From Cellulomonas bogoriensis 69B4 = DSM 16987 (GTDB taxonomy: Bacteria > Actinomycetota > Actinomycetes > Actinomycetales > Cellulomonadaceae), in the NCBI RefSeq assembly GCF_000767165.1, contig NZ_AXCZ01000009.1, forward strand, positions 1 to 36,656: a stretch of DNA of 36,656 bases, in the 5' to 3' direction. Under the pieces are notes generated by a model. The model saw only the letters and a list, made by a program, of their open reading frames with translations, was not told where the DNA came from and searched no databases. The translations under genes were made by a program, and so were the position numbers. This document shows, piece after piece, positions 1,997 through 34,959 of this stretch. Numbering within the stretch: the stretch's first letter is position 1; each line of letters begins with the position of its first letter.

Positions 1997-3412
1997 ATGA
2001 TCGACACCTTTGACGTGCTGGTGGTCGGTGCCGGGCCGGCGGGGACGTCCGCCGCGCTGACGGCCGCGGGTCTGGGTGCCCGGGTGGGCGTGGTCGAGGC
2101 CGGCCGCACGGGCGGGACGTGCGTGAACACGGGGTGCGTGCCGACCCGTGTGCTGGCGAAGACCGCCCGTCTCATGCGGGAGGTGCGGTCTGCGCAGGAC
2201 TTCGGCATCTCGGTGACGGGTCAGCGGTTGGACTGGGACGCGGCCGTCGCCCGGGTCCGGTCCACGGTGGAGCGGGTGCGTGAGGCGAAGGGTGACGTCG
2301 ACCGGTTCGCGGACGCGGGGGTGCAGGTGCTGACCGGCCGGGCCCGGTTCACCTCCCCTCACGAGCTGGACGTGACCTCCGGCGACGGCTCGGTGCGGCG
2401 GGTGCGCGCGGAGTCGGTGGTCCTGTGCGTCGGGGGTCACTCCCGTCGCCTGCCCGTGCCCGGCGCGGAGCTCGCGACCATGCCCGAGGAGGTCCTGGAC
2501 CTGCCAGCGTTGCCGCGACGGGTCGCGGTGATCGGTGCGGGCAACACCGGCGCCCAGCTGGTCACGGTGTTCAACGCGTTCGGCAGCGAGGTGACGTTGC
2601 TGGAGGTCGCGCCGCGCATCCTCGCCCAGACCGACGCGGACGTCTCTGCGCACGTGGAGCGCGCGTTCGGGGAGCAGGGCGTGCGGGTGGTGACGTCGGT
2701 GGAGTCGGTGACGTCGTTGGAGCGCACCGACGGCGGGATCCGCCTGTCGTGGACGGTCGCGGGCGTCAACCACGACCAGGTGGTCGACGCGGTGGTGATG
2801 TGCACGGGGTGGCCGGCGGCCATCGAGGACCTGGGCCTGGACGCCGCCGGGGTGCGCAGCGACCGGGGTCGGGTGCCGGTGGACGAGTACCTGGCGTCGA
2901 ACGTGGGTCACGTGTACGTGGCGGGGGACGCGAACGGTGTCGCGATGCTCGTGCAGGCCGCCAGGGCCGAGGCCGAGGCGGCGGCCCGGAACGCGGTGCT
3001 CGGCACGACGGTGCGCGCGCCGCACCGGTTGCTGCCCGCGGGCGGGTTCACCGACCCCGACTACGCGGACGTCGGCCTGACGGAGGAGCAGGCCCGTGAG
3101 CGGGACGAGCGGTGCGTGAGCGTCCTGGTCCCCTACGACTCCTTGGAACGTCCGGTCATCGACGACCGCACGAGGGGGTTCCTCAAGCTGGTCGCGGACC
3201 GCCGCCGTGAGCACCTGCTGGGCGCGCACGCCGTGGGGGAGAACGCGGTCGAGGTGATCCAGGCGGTGACCACGGCGATGGCGGCGGGCGTCGACGTCGC
3301 GACCCTGGCAAAGGTCGAGTTCGCCTACCCGACGTACAGTGCGGCGATCGGCGCCGCGGCGAGGGCCATGACGACGAGAGCGGCCCGACACGCCTCGAAT
3401 CTCAACCTGTAG
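1997..3412 (+). CDS. FAD-dependent pyridine nucleotide-disulfide oxidoreductase
   Basis: 471 residues with the class I disulfide reductase layout. The N-terminal FAD-binding fold is DVLVVGAGPAGTSAA, the redox-active pair is in GGTCVNTGCVPTRVL (C-X4-C), the NAD(P)-binding fold is VAVIGAGNTGAQLV, and the second FAD motif is HVYVAGDANG. A C-terminal dimerisation domain follows. Dihydrolipoamide dehydrogenase and mercuric reductase are the nearest relatives. The C-terminus reads FAYPTYSAAIGAAAR where dihydrolipoamide dehydrogenases carry the catalytic His-X4-Glu (HPHPTLSE-like), so the usual general base is missing. No C-terminal Cys pair of a true MerA is present. The substrate is therefore unknown. 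The ATG follows GTAGGGGC, a short ribosome site. It is the last gene before the sulfur-uptake operon. Confidence 0.8.
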   Translation: MIDTFDVLVVGAGPAGTSAALTAAGLGARVGVVEAGRTGGTCVNTGCVPTRVLAKTARLMREVRSAQDFGISVTGQRLDWDAAVARVRSTVERVREAKGDVDRFADAGVQVLTGRARFTSPHELDVTSGDGSVRRVRAESVVLCVGGHSRRLPVPGAELATMPEEVLDLPALPRRVAVIGAGNTGAQLVTVFNAFGSEVTLLEVAPRILAQTDADVSAHVERAFGEQGVRVVTSVESVTSLERTDGGIRLSWTVAGVNHDQVVDAVVMCTGWPAAIEDLGLDAAGVRSDRGRVPVDEYLASNVGHVYVAGDANGVAMLVQAARAEAEAAARNAVLGTTVRAPHRLLPAGGFTDPDYADVGLTEEQARERDERCVSVLVPYDSLERPVIDDRTRGFLKLVADRRREHLLGAHAVGENAVEVIQAVTTAMAAGVDVATLAKVEFAYPTYSAAIGAAARAMTTRAARHASNLNL

Positions 3413-3432
3413 GACGAGACCGTCCACATCGT
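3413..3432 (+). promoter_or_regulatory. Motif shared with the metQ upstream region
   Basis: GACGAGACCGTCCACATCGT directly follows the stop codon of the flavoprotein and abuts the -35 box. The same motif with two changes lies at 31732-31751, directly after the stop of the mannonate dehydratase gene and at the head of the metQ leader region. An activator or repressor site at two sulfur-uptake operons is my inference; no known binding consensus is matched. Confidence 0.45.
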
Positions 3433-3523: not shown

Positions 3524-3613
3524 ATGACCGCAGCCCAGCGCACCGCGCTGATGTGCCGCATGTCCATGTGTCCGGCTCGCGCCGGCCATCGGGCATCGTC
3601 CTCGCGTCCCTAG
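3524..3613 (+). CDS. Cys/Met-rich regulatory leader peptide (29 aa)
   Basis: A short ORF from ATG 3524 to TAG 3611-3613, with a good ribosome site (GGGGGA, spacing about 7). The core is RTALMCRMSMCPA: two Cys and three internal Met codons within nine residues. Short actinobacterial leader peptides with Arg-X-Ser-X-X-Cys-Pro-type cores occur upstream of sulfur assimilation genes, and Cys-codon-rich upstream ORFs are known to act as cysteine-responsive attenuators in mycobacteria. Here it precedes a sulfurtransferase and a thiosulfate transporter gene by 113 bases and is followed at once by alternative RNA hairpins. I infer that ribosome stalling at the Cys/Met codons senses sulfur amino acid supply. 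The peptide itself probably has no separate job. Confidence 0.7.
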   Translation: MTAAQRTALMCRMSMCPARAGHRASSSRP

Positions 3614-30546: not shown

Positions 30547-31731
30547 ATGGAGCACACGTGGCGCTGGTTCGGACCGCAGGACCCGATCACTCTCGCCCAG
30601 GTGCGGCAGACGGGTGCCACAGGGGTGGTGACGGCCCTGCACGAGGTGCCCAACGGTCAGGTGTGGCCGGTGGAGGCGATCGCGGCGCGCAAGCAGCTGG
30701 TCGAGGACGCGGGCCTGACCTGGTCGGTGGTCGAGAGCATCCCGATCCACGAGGACGTCAAGCGTGGCTCCGGTGAGCGGGACAGGTACGTGGAGGCGTG
30801 GGCGCAGTCGGTGCGCAACCTGGCGGCCTGCGGCCTGGACGTCGTCTGCTACAACTTCATGCCCGTCCTGGACTGGACGCGCACGGACCTGGCGTTCGCC
30901 CTGCCGGACGGGACGTGGGCGCTGCGGTTCGACGCCGACGCGTTCGCCGCGTTCGACGTGTTCGTGCTCGGCCGCCCGGGCGCGCAGGAGGAGTACGACG
31001 ACGACGAGCTGGCCAGGGCGCGGGCCCACTACGAGGGGTTGGACGAGGCCGGGCGCGAGGCGTTGACCCGCACGGTCATCGCGGGGTTGCCGGGTGCGGA
31101 GGAGCACTACGGCTTGGACGAGCTGCGGGCCGTGCTCGCCACGTACGAGGGCATGGGTGCACCTGATCTGCGGGCCACGCTCGCCTCGTTCCTGCGGGAC
31201 GTCGTGCCCGTGGCCGAGGAGGTGGGTGTGCGGTTGGCGATCCACCCGGACGACCCGCCGCGCCCGCTGCTGGGCCTGCCGAGGGTGGTGAGCACGGCCG
31301 CCGACGCCCAGGGGGTCCTGGACGCCGCGCCCAGCCCGGCGAACGGGTTGACGTTCTGCACGGGCTCCTACGGGGTGCGGCCGGACAACGACGTGGTGGC
31401 GATGGCCGAGCGGTTCGCCGAGCACATCTTCTTCGCGCACCTGAGGTCCACGCGCCGTGAGGCGAACCCGGCGAGCTTCCACGAGGCGGTGCACATCGAC
31501 GGGGACGTCGACATGGTGGGTGTGGTCGCGGCCCTGGTGCGTGAGGAACGACGCCGGGAGCGCGAGGGCGGTCCGCGGCTGCCGATGCGCCCGGACCACG
31601 GGCACCAGATGCTCGACGACCAGGCCCGCCGCACGAACCCCGGCTACTCGCTGCTGGGTCGGATGAAGGGCCTGGCCGAGCTGCGCGGGGTCGAGCTGGC
31701 GGTGCGCCGGCTCCTGCGCGACGACATCTGA
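30547..31731 (+). CDS. uxuA: Mannonate dehydratase
   Basis: 394 residues, the usual length of UxuA. It dehydrates D-mannonate to 2-keto-3-deoxygluconate in glucuronate breakdown. Family motifs seen are [23 protein letters not shown] at the start, [64 protein letters not shown], and MRPDHGHQM with the metal- and substrate-binding Asp/His. ATG 30547 gives the family N-terminus. No other hexuronate gene is in the window, so it stands apart from its pathway. Confidence 0.93.
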
Positions 31732-31751
31732 GACGAGAACGCCCACATCGT
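31732..31751 (+). promoter_or_regulatory. Motif shared with the thiosulfate operon, metQ upstream region
   Basis: GACGAGAACGCCCACATCGT, 18 of 20 identical to 3413-3432 and in the same place (at the head of the leader, right after the stop of an unrelated gene). TGTCC and GGACA (31751-31768) form a short dyad next to it. No good -35/-10 pair is visible here, so the motif may bind an activator. Confidence 0.45.
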
Positions 31752-31818
31752 GTCCGGATGATGGGACAACTGGGGGGTCGGTTTGGTGGGCCTCGGTACC
31801 CGATGCAGCATGGGCGCC

Positions 31819-31917
31819 ATGACCCGCCACAGCATGCTCGTCCAGGACGTCGCCGCGGCCGCCGCCCGCGCGATGTGCTGCTGTCGAATGCTGGAGCGGG
31901 ACGCCGCGACCGCCTGA
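31819..31917 (+). CDS. Cys-rich regulatory leader peptide (32 aa)
   Basis: From ATG 31819 (or in-frame ATG 31810) to TGA 31915-31917. The core is ARAMCCCRMLERD with three consecutive Cys codons at 31876-31884, followed by a short acidic/basic end. Consecutive Cys codons in a short upstream ORF before a sulfur-compound transporter gene are the hallmark of cysteine-responsive attenuation described in mycobacteria and other actinobacteria. No clear ribosome site is seen. The reading frame ends 173 bases before metQ. A long-range helix begins three bases after its stop codon. Confidence 0.7.
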   Translation: MTRHSMLVQDVAAAAARAMCCCRMLERDAATA

Positions 31918-31919
31918 GC

Positions 31920-32034
31920 CACGGACCGCCCTGACGGGCACCTGATCCGACCGCTCCGACCGTCGGCCCCCGGTACTCAGCTGCCGGCCCCCGCTGCCCC
32001 CGCACAGCCCCTGCTCACCTCAGGCAGGTCCGTG
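31920..32034 (+). promoter_or_regulatory. Long-range RNA pairing after the leader peptide
   Basis: CACGGACC (31920-31927) is complementary to GGTCCGTG (32027-32034), and CCTGA (31941-31945) to TCAGG (32020-32024). GCCC-TGAC-GGGC (31928-31939) forms a small hairpin inside. The left strand lies in the footprint of a ribosome at the leader stop codon, so pairing would depend on whether the ribosome stalls at the Cys codons or reaches the stop. The remaining bases up to 32090 are C-rich and hold no gene; GAAGGA at 32078-32083 is the metQ ribosome site. Confidence 0.4.
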
Positions 32035-32090
32035 CCCCCCCGCGTGCTGAGCCGCGACGCCCGCACCCCCGCTCGACCGAAGGATCCACC

Positions 32091-33038
32091 GTGCCTGCTC
32101 CCGCCCTGACCACCCTCGCACCTCACTCCCGGCGCACCGCCCGTCCGGCCTGGCGCCGTGCCGCTGCCGCGATCGGCGCCGCGGCCCTCGTCGTCGGCCT
32201 GGCCTCCTGCGGCACCGACGACGACGGCGCCGCCGTCCCGGAGGAGGGCGGGACCACCGAGACCGTCACCATCGGCGTGGTCGGTGCCGCCCAGGACTAC
32301 TGGCGCATCTTCGAGGAGCGCGCCGCCGACGAGGGCATCGACGTCGACCTGGTCGACTTCACCGAGTACAGCCAGCCGAACCCGGCGCTGAGCCAGGGCC
32401 AGCTGGACGTCAACCAGTTCCAGCACATCCTGTACCTGGCCCAGTACAACGTGGAGGCCGGTGAGGACCTGGTGCCGATCGGCGCCACGGCCGTCTACCC
32501 GCTGGGCCTGTACTCCGAGCGCCACACCTCCGTCGACGACATCCCCGAGGGCGGGGAGATCGCCGTCCCCAACGACCCCACCAACCTGGCGCGGGCCCTG
32601 CTGGTCCTGCAGGACGCGGGCCTGGTGGCGCTGCGTGACGGCGGTTCGGCGTTCGTGACCGAGGCCGACGTCCTCGCCGAGGAGTCCCGGGTGAGTGTCA
32701 CCCCCGTCGACGCCCAGCAGACGGCCCTGGCCCTGGGGTCGGTGGACGCGTCGATCATCAACAACGACTTCCTGCTGGACGCCGGGATCGACGCCGACAG
32801 CGCCCTGTACCAGGACGACGCCGGTTCGGACGCCGCCCGCCCCTACATCAACATCTGGGCCACGCGTGCCGAGGACGCCGACAACCCCACGTACCTGCGC
32901 CTGGTCGAGATCTTCAAGGACGAGGAGATCCAGCAGGCCCTGGTCGAGAACTCCGGGGGCACCGCGGTGCTGGCCGACCAGTCCGCCGAGGAGCTCCGGG
33001 GCTACTTGGCCGACGTCGAGGCCGACGCCCAGGGCTGA
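32091..33038 (+). CDS. metQ: MetQ/NlpA-family substrate-binding lipoprotein
   Basis: 315 residues. The signal ends in VVGLASC with the lipid Cys at residue 40. The mature protein is of the NlpA/MetQ family: TIGVVGAAQDYWRIFEE, VDLVDFTEYSQPNPAL, QLDVNQFQHILYLAQYN, EIAVPNDPTNLARALLVLQDAGL, and ASIINNDFLLDAG. It captures methionine (or a related amino acid) at the cell surface for the MetN-MetI importer. The Cys-codon leader suggests that cystine or another sulfur source may be the real ligand. GTG 32091 follows GAAGGATCCACC. Confidence 0.9.
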   Translation: MPAPALTTLAPHSRRTARPAWRRAAAAIGAAALVVGLASCGTDDDGAAVPEEGGTTETVTIGVVGAAQDYWRIFEERAADEGIDVDLVDFTEYSQPNPALSQGQLDVNQFQHILYLAQYNVEAGEDLVPIGATAVYPLGLYSERHTSVDDIPEGGEIAVPNDPTNLARALLVLQDAGLVALRDGGSAFVTEADVLAEESRVSVTPVDAQQTALALGSVDASIINNDFLLDAGIDADSALYQDDAGSDAARPYINIWATRAEDADNPTYLRLVEIFKDEEIQQALVENSGGTAVLADQSAEELRGYLADVEADAQG

Positions 33039-33061: not shown

Positions 33062-34138
33062 ATGAGCCCTGCCCCTGTGATGGTGCGCTTCCGCGACACC
33101 GTCAAGACGTTCCCCGGCACGCACGGCGAGATCCGTGCGGTCGACGGCGTGAGCCTCGACGTCCACGAGGGGGAGGTGTTCGGTGTCATCGGGTACTCCG
33201 GCGCCGGCAAGTCGACCCTGGTGCGGTTGATCAACGCCCTGGAGCCGGTGACGTCGGGCCAGGTCGTGGTCGACGGCGTCGAGGTCGCCGGACGTCCCGA
33301 GTCCGAGCTGCGACGGGTCCGTGCCGGCATCGGGATGATCTTCCAGCAGTTCAACCTCCTGTCCTCGCGCACCGTCGCGGGGAACGTGGGGTACCCGCTC
33401 GCCGTCGCGCGCTGGTCCAGGGCGCGACGGCGGGCGCGGGTCGCCGAGCTGCTGGAGTTCGTCGGGCTGTCCGACAAGGCCCGGCAGTTCCCCTCCCAGC
33501 TGTCCGGCGGGCAGAAGCAGCGGGTGGGGATCGCCCGGGCGCTCGCGACCAACCCCCGGCTCCTGCTGGCCGACGAGGCGACCTCGGCCCTGGACCCCGA
33601 GACCACCCAGGACGTCCTGGACCTGCTGCGCCGCGTCAACGGCGAGCTGGGGGTCACGGTCGTGGTCATCACCCACGAGATGGACGTCGTGAAGCACCTG
33701 TGCGACCGGGTCGCGGTCATGGAGGACGGGAAGGTCGTCGAGCTCGGTGAGGTGTACGACGTGTTCTCCCGGCCCCGGCACCGCGCGACCCGCCGGTTCG
33801 TGGGCTCGGCGCTGCGCGACCGTCCGAGCCCTGGGGCGTTGGAACGGCTGCGCCACCGGCACCCGGGGCGCGTCGTGACGGTGGCGGTGCAGGAGGACGG
33901 GGCCTCGTCGACCGACCTCACCCGTGCGCTGCGTGAGCACGCCGTCGACGGGACCATCATCTACGGGGGCATCACCGAGATCGCCGAACGCCCCTTCGGG
34001 TCGCTGACCCTCGAGCTCGAGGGCGACCACGGGGACGTCCAGGCGTTCATCGCGGACCTGTCCCGCACCACCTCGGTGCTGGACCTCGGCACCGCGGCCG
34101 CCCCGATCGCCGACCCCGACGCGACGGACCTTCGATGA
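33062..34138 (+). CDS. metN: Methionine-type ABC transporter ATPase MetN
   Basis: 358 residues. The ABC ATPase domain has GYSGAGKST (Walker A), the Q-loop MIFQQFNLLSS, the signature LSGGQKQRV, LLLADEATSALDPE (Walker B) and the switch His in VITHEMDVV. A C-terminal NIL domain (about 270-350) has HPGRVVTVAVQED and GTIIYGGITEIAERPFGSLTLELEG; in MetN this domain binds methionine and inhibits transport when the pool is full. It lies 23 bases after metQ and overlaps metI by ATGA. Confidence 0.95.
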   Translation: MSPAPVMVRFRDTVKTFPGTHGEIRAVDGVSLDVHEGEVFGVIGYSGAGKSTLVRLINALEPVTSGQVVVDGVEVAGRPESELRRVRAGIGMIFQQFNLLSSRTVAGNVGYPLAVARWSRARRRARVAELLEFVGLSDKARQFPSQLSGGQKQRVGIARALATNPRLLLADEATSALDPETTQDVLDLLRRVNGELGVTVVVITHEMDVVKHLCDRVAVMEDGKVVELGEVYDVFSRPRHRATRRFVGSALRDRPSPGALERLRHRHPGRVVTVAVQEDGASSTDLTRALREHAVDGTIIYGGITEIAERPFGSLTLELEGDHGDVQAFIADLSRTTSVLDLGTAAAPIADPDATDLR

Positions 34139-34803
34139 ACCGCGAGACGAACTGGGACTACCTCCTCCCGCAGCTGTGGGAGGCGTTCGGCGACACCGTC
34201 TACATGGTGTCGGTCACGCTGCTGATCTCGGGTGTCGTGGGGCTGGCCATGGGCCTGGCGATCTACGTGACCCGCCGGGGGAACTTCCTGCAGAACCGCA
34301 CCGTGTTCGCCGTCCTCAACGTGGTCATCAACACGATCCGGCCGATTCCGTTCGTGATCTTCGTGTTCGCGGTCGGGCCGGTCGTCCTGTGGCTGGTGGG
34401 CCGGACGATCGGCACCGAGGCCGCGATCCCGCCGATGGCCGTGATGGCGTCGGTGGCGTTCGCGCGGCTCGTCGAGCAGAACCTCGTCGCACTGGACCCC
34501 GGGGTCATCGAGGCGGCACGGGCCATGGGCGCCTCCCGGTGGCGGGTCATCTGGTCGGTCCTGATCCCCGAGGCGCTGGGGCCGCTCATCCTGGCGTTCA
34601 CGTTCCTGACGATCGCGGTGATCGACATGTCCGCGATCGTCGGGATGATCGGGGCCGGTGGCCTGGGGGACTTCGCGATCCGCCACGGCTACCAGCGCTT
34701 CAACTGGGACGTGGTGCTCGTCACGGTCGCCGTGATCGTGGTGATGGTCCAGGCCGTCCAGCTGCTCGGCAACGCCCTGGCCCGACGGTTCCTGCGCCGC
34801 TGA
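34135..34803 (+). CDS. metI: Methionine-type ABC transporter permease MetI
   Basis: 222 residues with five membrane segments. The permease motif is in EAARAMGASRWRVIWSVLIPEALGPLI (the EAA loop that contacts MetN). VINTIRPIPFVIFVFAV and VIDMSAIVGMIGAGGLGDFAIRHGYQRF are typical MetI sequences. It pairs with MetN and MetQ for import. ATG 34135 overlaps the metN stop by four bases, so it is translationally coupled. The SRP RNA gene follows 40-odd bases later. Confidence 0.95.
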   Translation: MNRETNWDYLLPQLWEAFGDTVYMVSVTLLISGVVGLAMGLAIYVTRRGNFLQNRTVFAVLNVVINTIRPIPFVIFVFAVGPVVLWLVGRTIGTEAAIPPMAVMASVAFARLVEQNLVALDPGVIEAARAMGASRWRVIWSVLIPEALGPLILAFTFLTIAVIDMSAIVGMIGAGGLGDFAIRHGYQRFNWDVVLVTVAVIVVMVQAVQLLGNALARRFLRR

Positions 34804-34845: not shown

Positions 34846-34941
34846 GCCGACCCCTCGTACGGCGTCATCTCGCTGAACTCCCCCAGGGCCGGAAGGCAGC
34901 AAGGGCAGGCGGGCTCTGACGGGTGTGCGGGGGGTCCTTGC
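34846..34941 (+). ncRNA. ffs: Signal recognition particle RNA, small bacterial type (4.5S)
   Basis: The hallmark apical loop CAGGGCCGGAAGGCAGCA AGGG (34884-34904) with its GGAA tetraloop and the asymmetric internal loop are present. GACCCC at the 5' end pairs with GGGGGTC at the 3' end (34927-34936). Ends are approximate. TACCCT (34837-34842) is a likely -10 box. Its position between metI and dnaX agrees with ffs lying near dnaX in many actinobacteria. Confidence 0.9.
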
Positions 34942-34959
34942 ATGTCTGTCGACCAGCCC

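Follow-up and report, generated by a model that had tools for sequence, protein, structure and literature searches.

A leader ORF with mixed methionine and cysteine codons upstream of metQNI in Cellulomonas bogoriensis, a probable ribosome-sensing attenuator

What would a run of cysteine codons sense when it stands before an importer of the methionine type? The question is raised by the window, the 36,656-nt stretch of Cellulomonas bogoriensis DNA analysed here, in which uxuA (mannonate dehydratase) ends at 31731, the transporter genes metQNI begin at 32091, and a short ORF lies between them on the plus strand. A first-pass annotation had drawn attention to three consecutive Cys codons in this ORF and had read them as cysteine sensing through an RNA helix masked by a terminating ribosome, proposing that the transporter may carry cystine or that methionine uptake is coupled to the supply of cysteine; this interpretation is partly supported by the analysis below. 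The ORF itself is confirmed. It spans 31819-31917 (32 codons and a TGA, with the ATG at 31819 and the stop at 31915-31917), encodes the peptide MTRHSMLVQDVAAAAARAMCCCRMLERDAATA, and contains at 31873-31890 the regulatory core M19-C20-C21-C22-R23-M24, written ATG TGC TGC TGT CGA ATG with the CGA at 31885-31887. This core exceeds chance expectation: MCCCRM is the sole six-residue stop-free stretch with at least five Met/Cys residues, 1 of 68,166 over the six frames of the whole window. Compared with NCBIfam and Pfam, the peptide matched no protein family.

Two earlier in-frame starts are present, an ATG at 31810 that overlaps a -10 like box and a TTG at 31783 that overlaps a -35 like box, and because both fall on promoter-like boxes, ATG 31819 is the likely start of the leader; matches to leader profiles in the window also begin at 31819. 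The -35 like box (TTGGTG, 31783-31788, plus strand) is called from sequence alone, and the -10 like box (CAGCAT, 31806-31811, plus strand) lies 17 nt past it, with 7 nt between its end and the leader ATG. In a 36-row promoter alignment (L003, L036, L051, L054, L056 and L059 omitted), T at -36 occurs in 28/36 loci and G at -34 in 30/36, and in most loci a CAnnAT-like box precedes the ATG by 6-7 nt, with A at -11 in 23/36 and T at -7 in 27/36. The spacing of these boxes would suit a leaderless mRNA. Farther upstream, an imperfect palindrome, TGTCCGGATGATGGGAC (31751-31767, plus strand), centred near -60 of the leader start, forms a putative operator-like site, and a matrix search places the corresponding palindrome, GTCYCGCATCGTGRGAY, at -70 to -66 of the leader start in 31/35 loci. 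The matrix was grown over these 35 loci from a seed picked by eye (L003, L025, L036, L051 and L059 omitted); with the window site excluded from it, that site is still the second best on both strands of the whole window. A position near -60 is that of an activator site. The top operator-like match of the window lies at 3399-3415, about 110 nt before the ORF at 3524-3613 (MTAAQRTALMCRMSMCPARAGHRASSSRP), a second Met/Cys ORF that is followed by genes for a rhodanese-type sulfurtransferase and a YeeE/YedE-like membrane protein. A counterpart of this ORF is absent at 14 of 15 related loci, and L134 has a different Cys-containing ORF; for want of counterparts in relatives, no support is drawn from it.

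An ORF of this kind recurs upstream of metQ in relatives. The window MetQ was searched in 99 genomes, and a close ortholog was found in 39 genomes of the same family, where reading the oriented upstream regions by hand revealed a leader before metQ in 37/39 (weak in L014 and a few others). The two genomes without a clear leader are represented by L051, where it is weak, and L054, where there is none. Start and stop of the family leaders lie 22-39 codons apart in this reading. At the named-genome loci L031-L034 and L038-L049, hand reading recognised no Met/Cys leader, and the sequence of L063 is too short for a test. A blind rule, which calls for an ORF of 20-45 codons in which three or more of six residues are Met/Cys, with one Cys or more, is passed by 33/39 family loci, as against 5/39 when the same regions are read on the reverse strand (Fisher P = 1.5e-10) and 2/22 regions upstream of distant MetQ genes (Fisher P = 6e-9). 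The ORF found by the rule is the hand-read one in 32 of the 33 family passes and another ORF in L061. Close MetQ genes of other families pass in 1/7 cases, and under a stricter rule (at least four Met/Cys) 20/39 family loci pass, with zero on the reverse strand, before close MetQ genes of other families and before distant ones. Among 12 further loci of the class, those of f38 pass the blind rule in 6/6 cases and those of f19 and f45 in 0/6 (L142-L147). Both distant passes (L085 and L087) belong to two MetQ genes of a single genome, G095, and their leaders, MNTNIIEAASMQCSVCAYARRMLGMA and MNTIIIEAGVMNCAVCAYARCMIGMA, are akin to each other; upstream of L064, a third and closer metQ of that genome, an ORF ends in LCASCSMCSAR.

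Profile searches give the same association with metQ. Profile A2, built from 30 leaders, was run on 150 family genomes, 60 of which had a match at E ≤0.1; among the best 30 of these 60 genome matches metQ adjoins in 30/30, and nine of these matches are in genomes that had supplied no leader to the model. The smaller profile A1, built from nine leaders, was searched in 39 genomes, the genome of its ninth row being outside those 39, and in nine genomes gave a single match each, with E no higher than 1.7e-14, the next best match being at 0.028. Eight of the nine matched genomes had supplied rows, and the ninth shares its peptide with a row.

Read over orthologs, the cysteine run of the window takes on a different aspect. 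The cores of the closest group are MMCMRM (L002, L003), MMCGRM (L004), MMCCRM (L005, L006, L007 and L009, the last from a neighbouring genus), MMCARM (L008) and MCCCRM (the window). The series is thus Met-led, with MCCCRM its most Cys-rich member. The closest orthologous leaders, L002, L003, L004 and L008, contain one Cys and three to five Met; Met codons are kept at least as well as Cys codons, and ATG, TGC and TGT swap at the same core places, by a change of three bases at once or a paired gain and loss of codons. Met and Cys are both present in 37/37 family leaders, 9/9 held-out leaders and 6/6 leaders of f38, another family of the same class (one of which ends in GMRMRPCPMRMRRCH). Among the 37 family leaders, Cys outnumbers Met in 16, Met outnumbers Cys in 11 and the two are equal in 10. 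Met makes up 8.7% and Cys 10.0% of leader residues (n=1178), and 7.3% and 11.1% of held-out residues (n=287). The corresponding background shares are 1.5% (Met) and 0.4% (Cys) in uxuA-metQNI; for 80 short ORFs of the window they are 1.2% and 3.3%. These residue counts, and the CGA counts below, leave out L003 (a repeat of the L002 peptide), L036, L051 (weak) and L054 (none), treat L056 as the same place as L037, and include the named-genome loci L035 and L037. Because all these leaders carry Met and Cys and both are enriched, it is most likely that the supply of Met and that of Cys are both sensed, in place of the cysteine-only sensing first proposed.

The transporter, judged by its predicted products, is of the MetNIQ type, comprising an NlpA lipoprotein, a NIL ATPase and a permease, all encoded on the plus strand. 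The gene metQ (32091-33038, GTG start) encodes an NlpA/MetQ-type substrate-binding lipoprotein (PF03180, 216 bits, over cut-off), metN (33062-34138) an ATPase with a C-terminal NIL domain (PF00005 and PF09383, over cut-off), and metI (34135-34803) a permease (PF00528, over cut-off). NCBIfam scores lie well under their cut-offs for MetQ (TIGR00363, 149/228.85 bits), MetN (TIGR02314, 311/499.7 bits) and MetI (NF008049, 142.8/212 bits), and the three therefore represent a divergent subfamily. NIL domains bind methionine, and the solved relatives of MetQ are 1p99, which is reported to bind Gly-Met, other lipoproteins, and MetQ 4yah. The NlpA lipoprotein, the NIL domains and the MetQ/NlpA-type solved relatives speak against a cystine carrier as the first-pass annotation had entertained it, and a cystine importer was rejected as the leading reading because the orthologous leaders keep Met and lose Cys codons. 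The Cys run was a misleading clue in this respect, and we take from it a testable rule: regulatory codons should be judged across orthologs rather than from a single genome. The companion idea of a link between methionine uptake and cysteine supply fares better. The genome encodes a predicted cystathionine beta-synthase and a cystathionine gamma-synthase-type enzyme, both over cut-off, along with sulfhydrylases, PAPS-reductase-family genes and a MetE-type domain. A path from Met to Cys in the host is plausible on this gene content and would account for the Cys codons before a Met importer with no need for cystine transport. Directly after metI the window holds a small SRP RNA gene (34846-34942); in L015, L019, L024 and L029 the SRP RNA gene lies upstream of the metQ leader, the neighbourhood being kept and the order changed.

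We consider that the metQNI leader is probably a ribosome-sensing, attenuator-type uORF, with a probability of about 0.78. The mRNA would begin without a 5′ leader at ATG 31819, and the 32-codon peptide would serve only to time translation. A shortage of charged tRNA-Met or tRNA-Cys would stall the ribosome in AUG-UGC-UGC-UGU-CGA-AUG, and metQNI expression would go up; when both charged tRNAs are plentiful, the ribosome would reach the stop and expression would go down. Because Met and Cys codons are interchangeable in the core, either shortage would be read as a shortage of sulfur amino acids. The leaderless start, the stalling and the sign of the response are all three what we infer from this arrangement. 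Beside the conserved Met codon, the fixed and slow CGA probably paces the ribosome at this spot. Across 37 leaders and the nine held-out ones, an Arg directly before Met is encoded by CGA in 41/46 cases and other Arg codons are CGA in 4/208 (Fisher P = 5e-37, a value overstated because the leaders are related); CGA accounts for 5/110 Arg codons in uxuA-metQNI, and CGA ATG is found in 4/6 of the f38 leaders (L138-L141). In the E. coli his leader, according to the available part of one report, CGA slows the ribosome and de-attenuates the operon, with CGU and CGC being read faster (PMC4046918). Attenuators with leader peptides are generally taken to count a single amino acid; the exchange of Met and Cys around a fixed rare CGA suggests dual sensing with a built-in pace-setter.

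The same core occurs elsewhere in the genome. The 9-mer TGYCGAATG has five occurrences in the window's genome and the reversed pattern none; one is the copy in the metQ leader, another precedes metY, a third lies in a Cys-rich ORF ahead of a reductase-like gene, and two are at sites that are not leader-like. The gene metY encodes an O-acetylhomoserine sulfhydrylase (above the NCBIfam cut-off), and its mini-leader in this genome reads ATG TCC TGC CGA ATG TGC CGC TGA (L151 421-444, on G000:C126). In the third case the ORF MTGRPSAASAPAASTVVCPVECRMPGRLRAAGGACCPCGHQSSCCR, with CGA-ATG (L177, G000:C25, around 7960, minus strand), precedes a nitrite/sulfite-reductase-like gene that is a cut fragment and scores under the cut-offs; two PAPS-reductase-family genes are on the same contig. 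Among 20 metY loci, 17 have an ORF of 7-8 codons (counted from the nearest ATG) that ends in RMCR and a stop around a CGA-ATG core (L151, L157-L164, L166-L173), the residue before the CGA being Cys in 11/17, Arg in 5/17 and His in 1/17. The exceptions are L165, which has no CGAATG, and L174 and L175, which have something else. At L175, from a relative of another family, the RMCR ORF is absent and Rfam identifies a SAM-IV riboswitch upstream of metY; on the seven metY loci searched with Rfam nothing else matched. The flanks of CGAATG before metY are near-invariant, and the region after the mini-leader stop is conserved. The metY core could pair with a stretch just past the stop in 16/18 loci, L175 included; the partner is less exact, by eye, in other genera, and a two-sided change in this helix is absent in 17 loci. 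A stretch resembling the operator-like palindrome, GGATCGTGAGAC, precedes the metY leader.

How else might the leader be read? An attenuator that senses cysteine alone, like the polycysteine type of mycobacteria, coupled to an importer of cystine or cysteine, would account for the three consecutive Cys codons of the window, for the fact that none of the 37 family leaders lacks Cys and for the 16 leaders in which Cys prevails, and Actinobacterial cys operons are known to have Cys-run leaders (PMC1262725, in its available part). Set against this are the one Cys and three to five Met of the closest orthologs (L002/L003, L004, L008), the NIL domain that MetN retains and the grouping of MetQ among MetQ/NlpA lipoproteins. 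In the same genome, moreover, an ORF about 187 nt upstream of a cysK match (L149, G000:C503) ends in MRTSTVPMPAVACRRCRCPRSAGTA with a Cys-only core, CRRCRC, which contrasts with the Met/Cys core before metQ, and on balance the cysteine-only account is highly unlikely. Somewhat better placed, and still unlikely, is an element conserved as nucleotides, in RNA or DNA, with CGAATG inside it and a protein or RNA polymerase pausing as its reader, the frame being incidental. Variable columns in eight close leaders (one L009 codon removed, frame kept) number 18, 18 and 20 by codon position, a flat distribution, and there is therefore no amino-acid-level signature outside the core; CGA is fixed at the nucleotide level, and CGAATG recurs before metY with its near-invariant flanks and the possible partner past the stop. 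Yet start and stop of the metQ leaders are kept within the span given above, ATG, TGC and TGT interchange at the same core places, the metY hairpin is without two-sided change, and among metQ leaders with CGAATG a nearby pairing partner is found in just 1/27. The lack of general protein-level constraint would also be expected of a chance ORF without function, an account contradicted by the conservation, the held-out linkage to metQ and the codon enrichment, and one to which we give hardly any weight.

The step after stalling, on our preferred reading of a ribosome-sensing leader, would take place in the C-rich, G-poor spacer (31918-32078, plus strand; 87 C and 46 G in 31918-32090), the candidate switch site, which is followed by the metQ Shine-Dalgarno sequence GAAGG (32079-32083, plus strand); most relatives have a comparable one. 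The region 31700-32200 contains no terminator-like site, and the intrinsic terminator that a classical trp-type attenuator has between leader and gene finds no support here. One possibility is translation attenuation, in which base-pairing hides the metQ Shine-Dalgarno sequence and a ribosome stalled in the leader releases it; a general model of this kind, with cysteine genes of M. smegmatis called translation-attenuated, is given in the available text of PMC13236596. The helix proposed in the first-pass annotation (31920-31927 with 32027-32034) does consist of exactly complementary 8-mers, but 6% of 500 dinucleotide shuffles produce an arm of at least 8 from the first 20 nt past the stop; seven close relatives (six of the same genus, one of a neighbouring genus) have arms of only 5-6 nt, and the helix, not being conserved, was rejected as the switch. 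Ribosome placement and folding with shuffled spacers were modelled thermodynamically at 33 of the loci where the metQ start was found. In the window alone, access to the Shine-Dalgarno sequence is highest with a stalled ribosome, as this model would have it (0.67 stalled, 0.39 at the stop, 0.60 with no ribosome), but over the 33 loci such a pattern is absent: mean access is 0.45 with the ribosome stalled in the core and 0.45 with it at the stop (P = 0.51). With the ribosome stalled, access also lies a little below the ribosome-free value (0.45 vs 0.47, P = 0.012). The spacer is more stable than its shuffles (z < -1) in 19/33 loci, the window excepted (z 0.5), but the native Shine-Dalgarno sequence is more open than with shuffled spacers (lower in 8/33, P = 0.0007). 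Occlusion relieved by stalling was thus set aside, two folding tests over the 33 loci giving it no support and one pointing in the opposite direction; we regard masking of the ribosome-binding site as a minority possibility. A consensus hairpin inside the leader of nine relatives, with 6/29 pairs changing on both sides and a covariation term of -1.14 in what is coding sequence, was left unused. Slightly ahead of masking we place Rho-dependent transcription attenuation, whose chances we put at a little under even. The C-richness of the window spacer is reached by just 3.4% of 500 coding stretches, and a C-rich bubble of at least 0.2 occurs in 31/33 family spacers; it occurs as well in 16/22 regions upstream of distant MetQ genes, so that the C-rich spacer is a weak argument for Rho, and a Rho site read from it was dropped as too common in upstream regions.

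In the mycobacterial polycysteine attenuator model, a structure occludes the Shine-Dalgarno sequence of the next gene and stalling relieves it, and such polycysteine leaderless sORFs were reportedly treated by Canestrari in 2020. At metQ the consecutive Cys run fails as a conserved sensor, L002, L003, L004 and L008 having a single Cys, and a structure occluding the Shine-Dalgarno sequence and relieved by stalling did not emerge from the thermodynamic model over 33 loci. As far as the available texts go, leaderless polycysteine sORFs of mycobacteria are described in PMC9031893, PMC13236596 and PMC9094748 and precede cysA2, nirA and Rv0485 (PMC4633059); they resemble the present leader as short ORFs with consecutive Cys codons before a sulfur operon, theirs being leaderless and ribosome-mediated, and differ from it in answering to cysteine, whereas the metQ leader keeps Met codons and stands before a methionine-type importer. 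The leaders with Cys runs that precede cys operons and cbs (Seliverstov 2005, PMC1262725) likewise have sulfur codons near the stop and lack a conserved terminator, with Rho weakly proposed, but in the available part of that paper they belong to other genes and contain Cys only. SAM riboswitches of methionine genes presumably do the same physiological job; the metQ leader region, by contrast, is without an Rfam match at E up to 1. Closest is metL of Streptomyces lividans TK24, MSTTSDRTPATEATTTPGARCMCRRMCAF, a methionine-dependent leader upstream of metNIQ that is leaderless by RNA-seq (PMC8079986). Like the window ORF, it is a short ORF before metNIQ genes; it ends in mixed Cys/Met codons (...RCMCRRMCAF), and a typical Rho-independent terminator was likewise not found there, according to the available text (PMC8079986). 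It is described in that text as having several methionines and threonines, and it precedes metN, whereas the Cellulomonas leader precedes metQ (PMC8079986). A metNIQ leader is thus already in print, and the window leader is a variant of that kind; within the open-licence literature we recognised nothing as a closer precedent for Cys/Met leaders, metNIQ leader peptides, leader CGA codons or a metY leader.

The CGA-AUG core is common to the leaders of metQ (32 codons), metY (MxCRMCR or MxRRMCR) and the sulfite/nitrite-reductase-like gene, and those of metQ and metY also share, by sequence comparison, a leaderless-type promoter and a similar operator-like stretch. We tentatively suggest, as something that may well prove otherwise, a sulfur-amino-acid regulon, in the Actinobacteria compared here, built on mini-leaders around CGA-AUG with Cys/Met codons beside it, the slow Arg being wedged between regulatory codons and the ribosome integrating Met and Cys supply at one spot rather than tallying repeats of a single codon; a metY leader of 7 codons is very short for such a device. 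A search of 101 family genomes for TGYCGAATGTGYCGCTGA, by exact match and hence confined to the exact core, found 17 places in 16 genomes, with metY next in 15/17. At L194 (G047:C2:220748-220765), an ORF ending in CLCRMCR lies before a gene with no NCBIfam or Pfam match. The ORF at L193 (G121:C12:520855-520872), MFCRMCR, is divergent from metY and stands before a frame that by reading is NlpC/P60 hydrolase-like.
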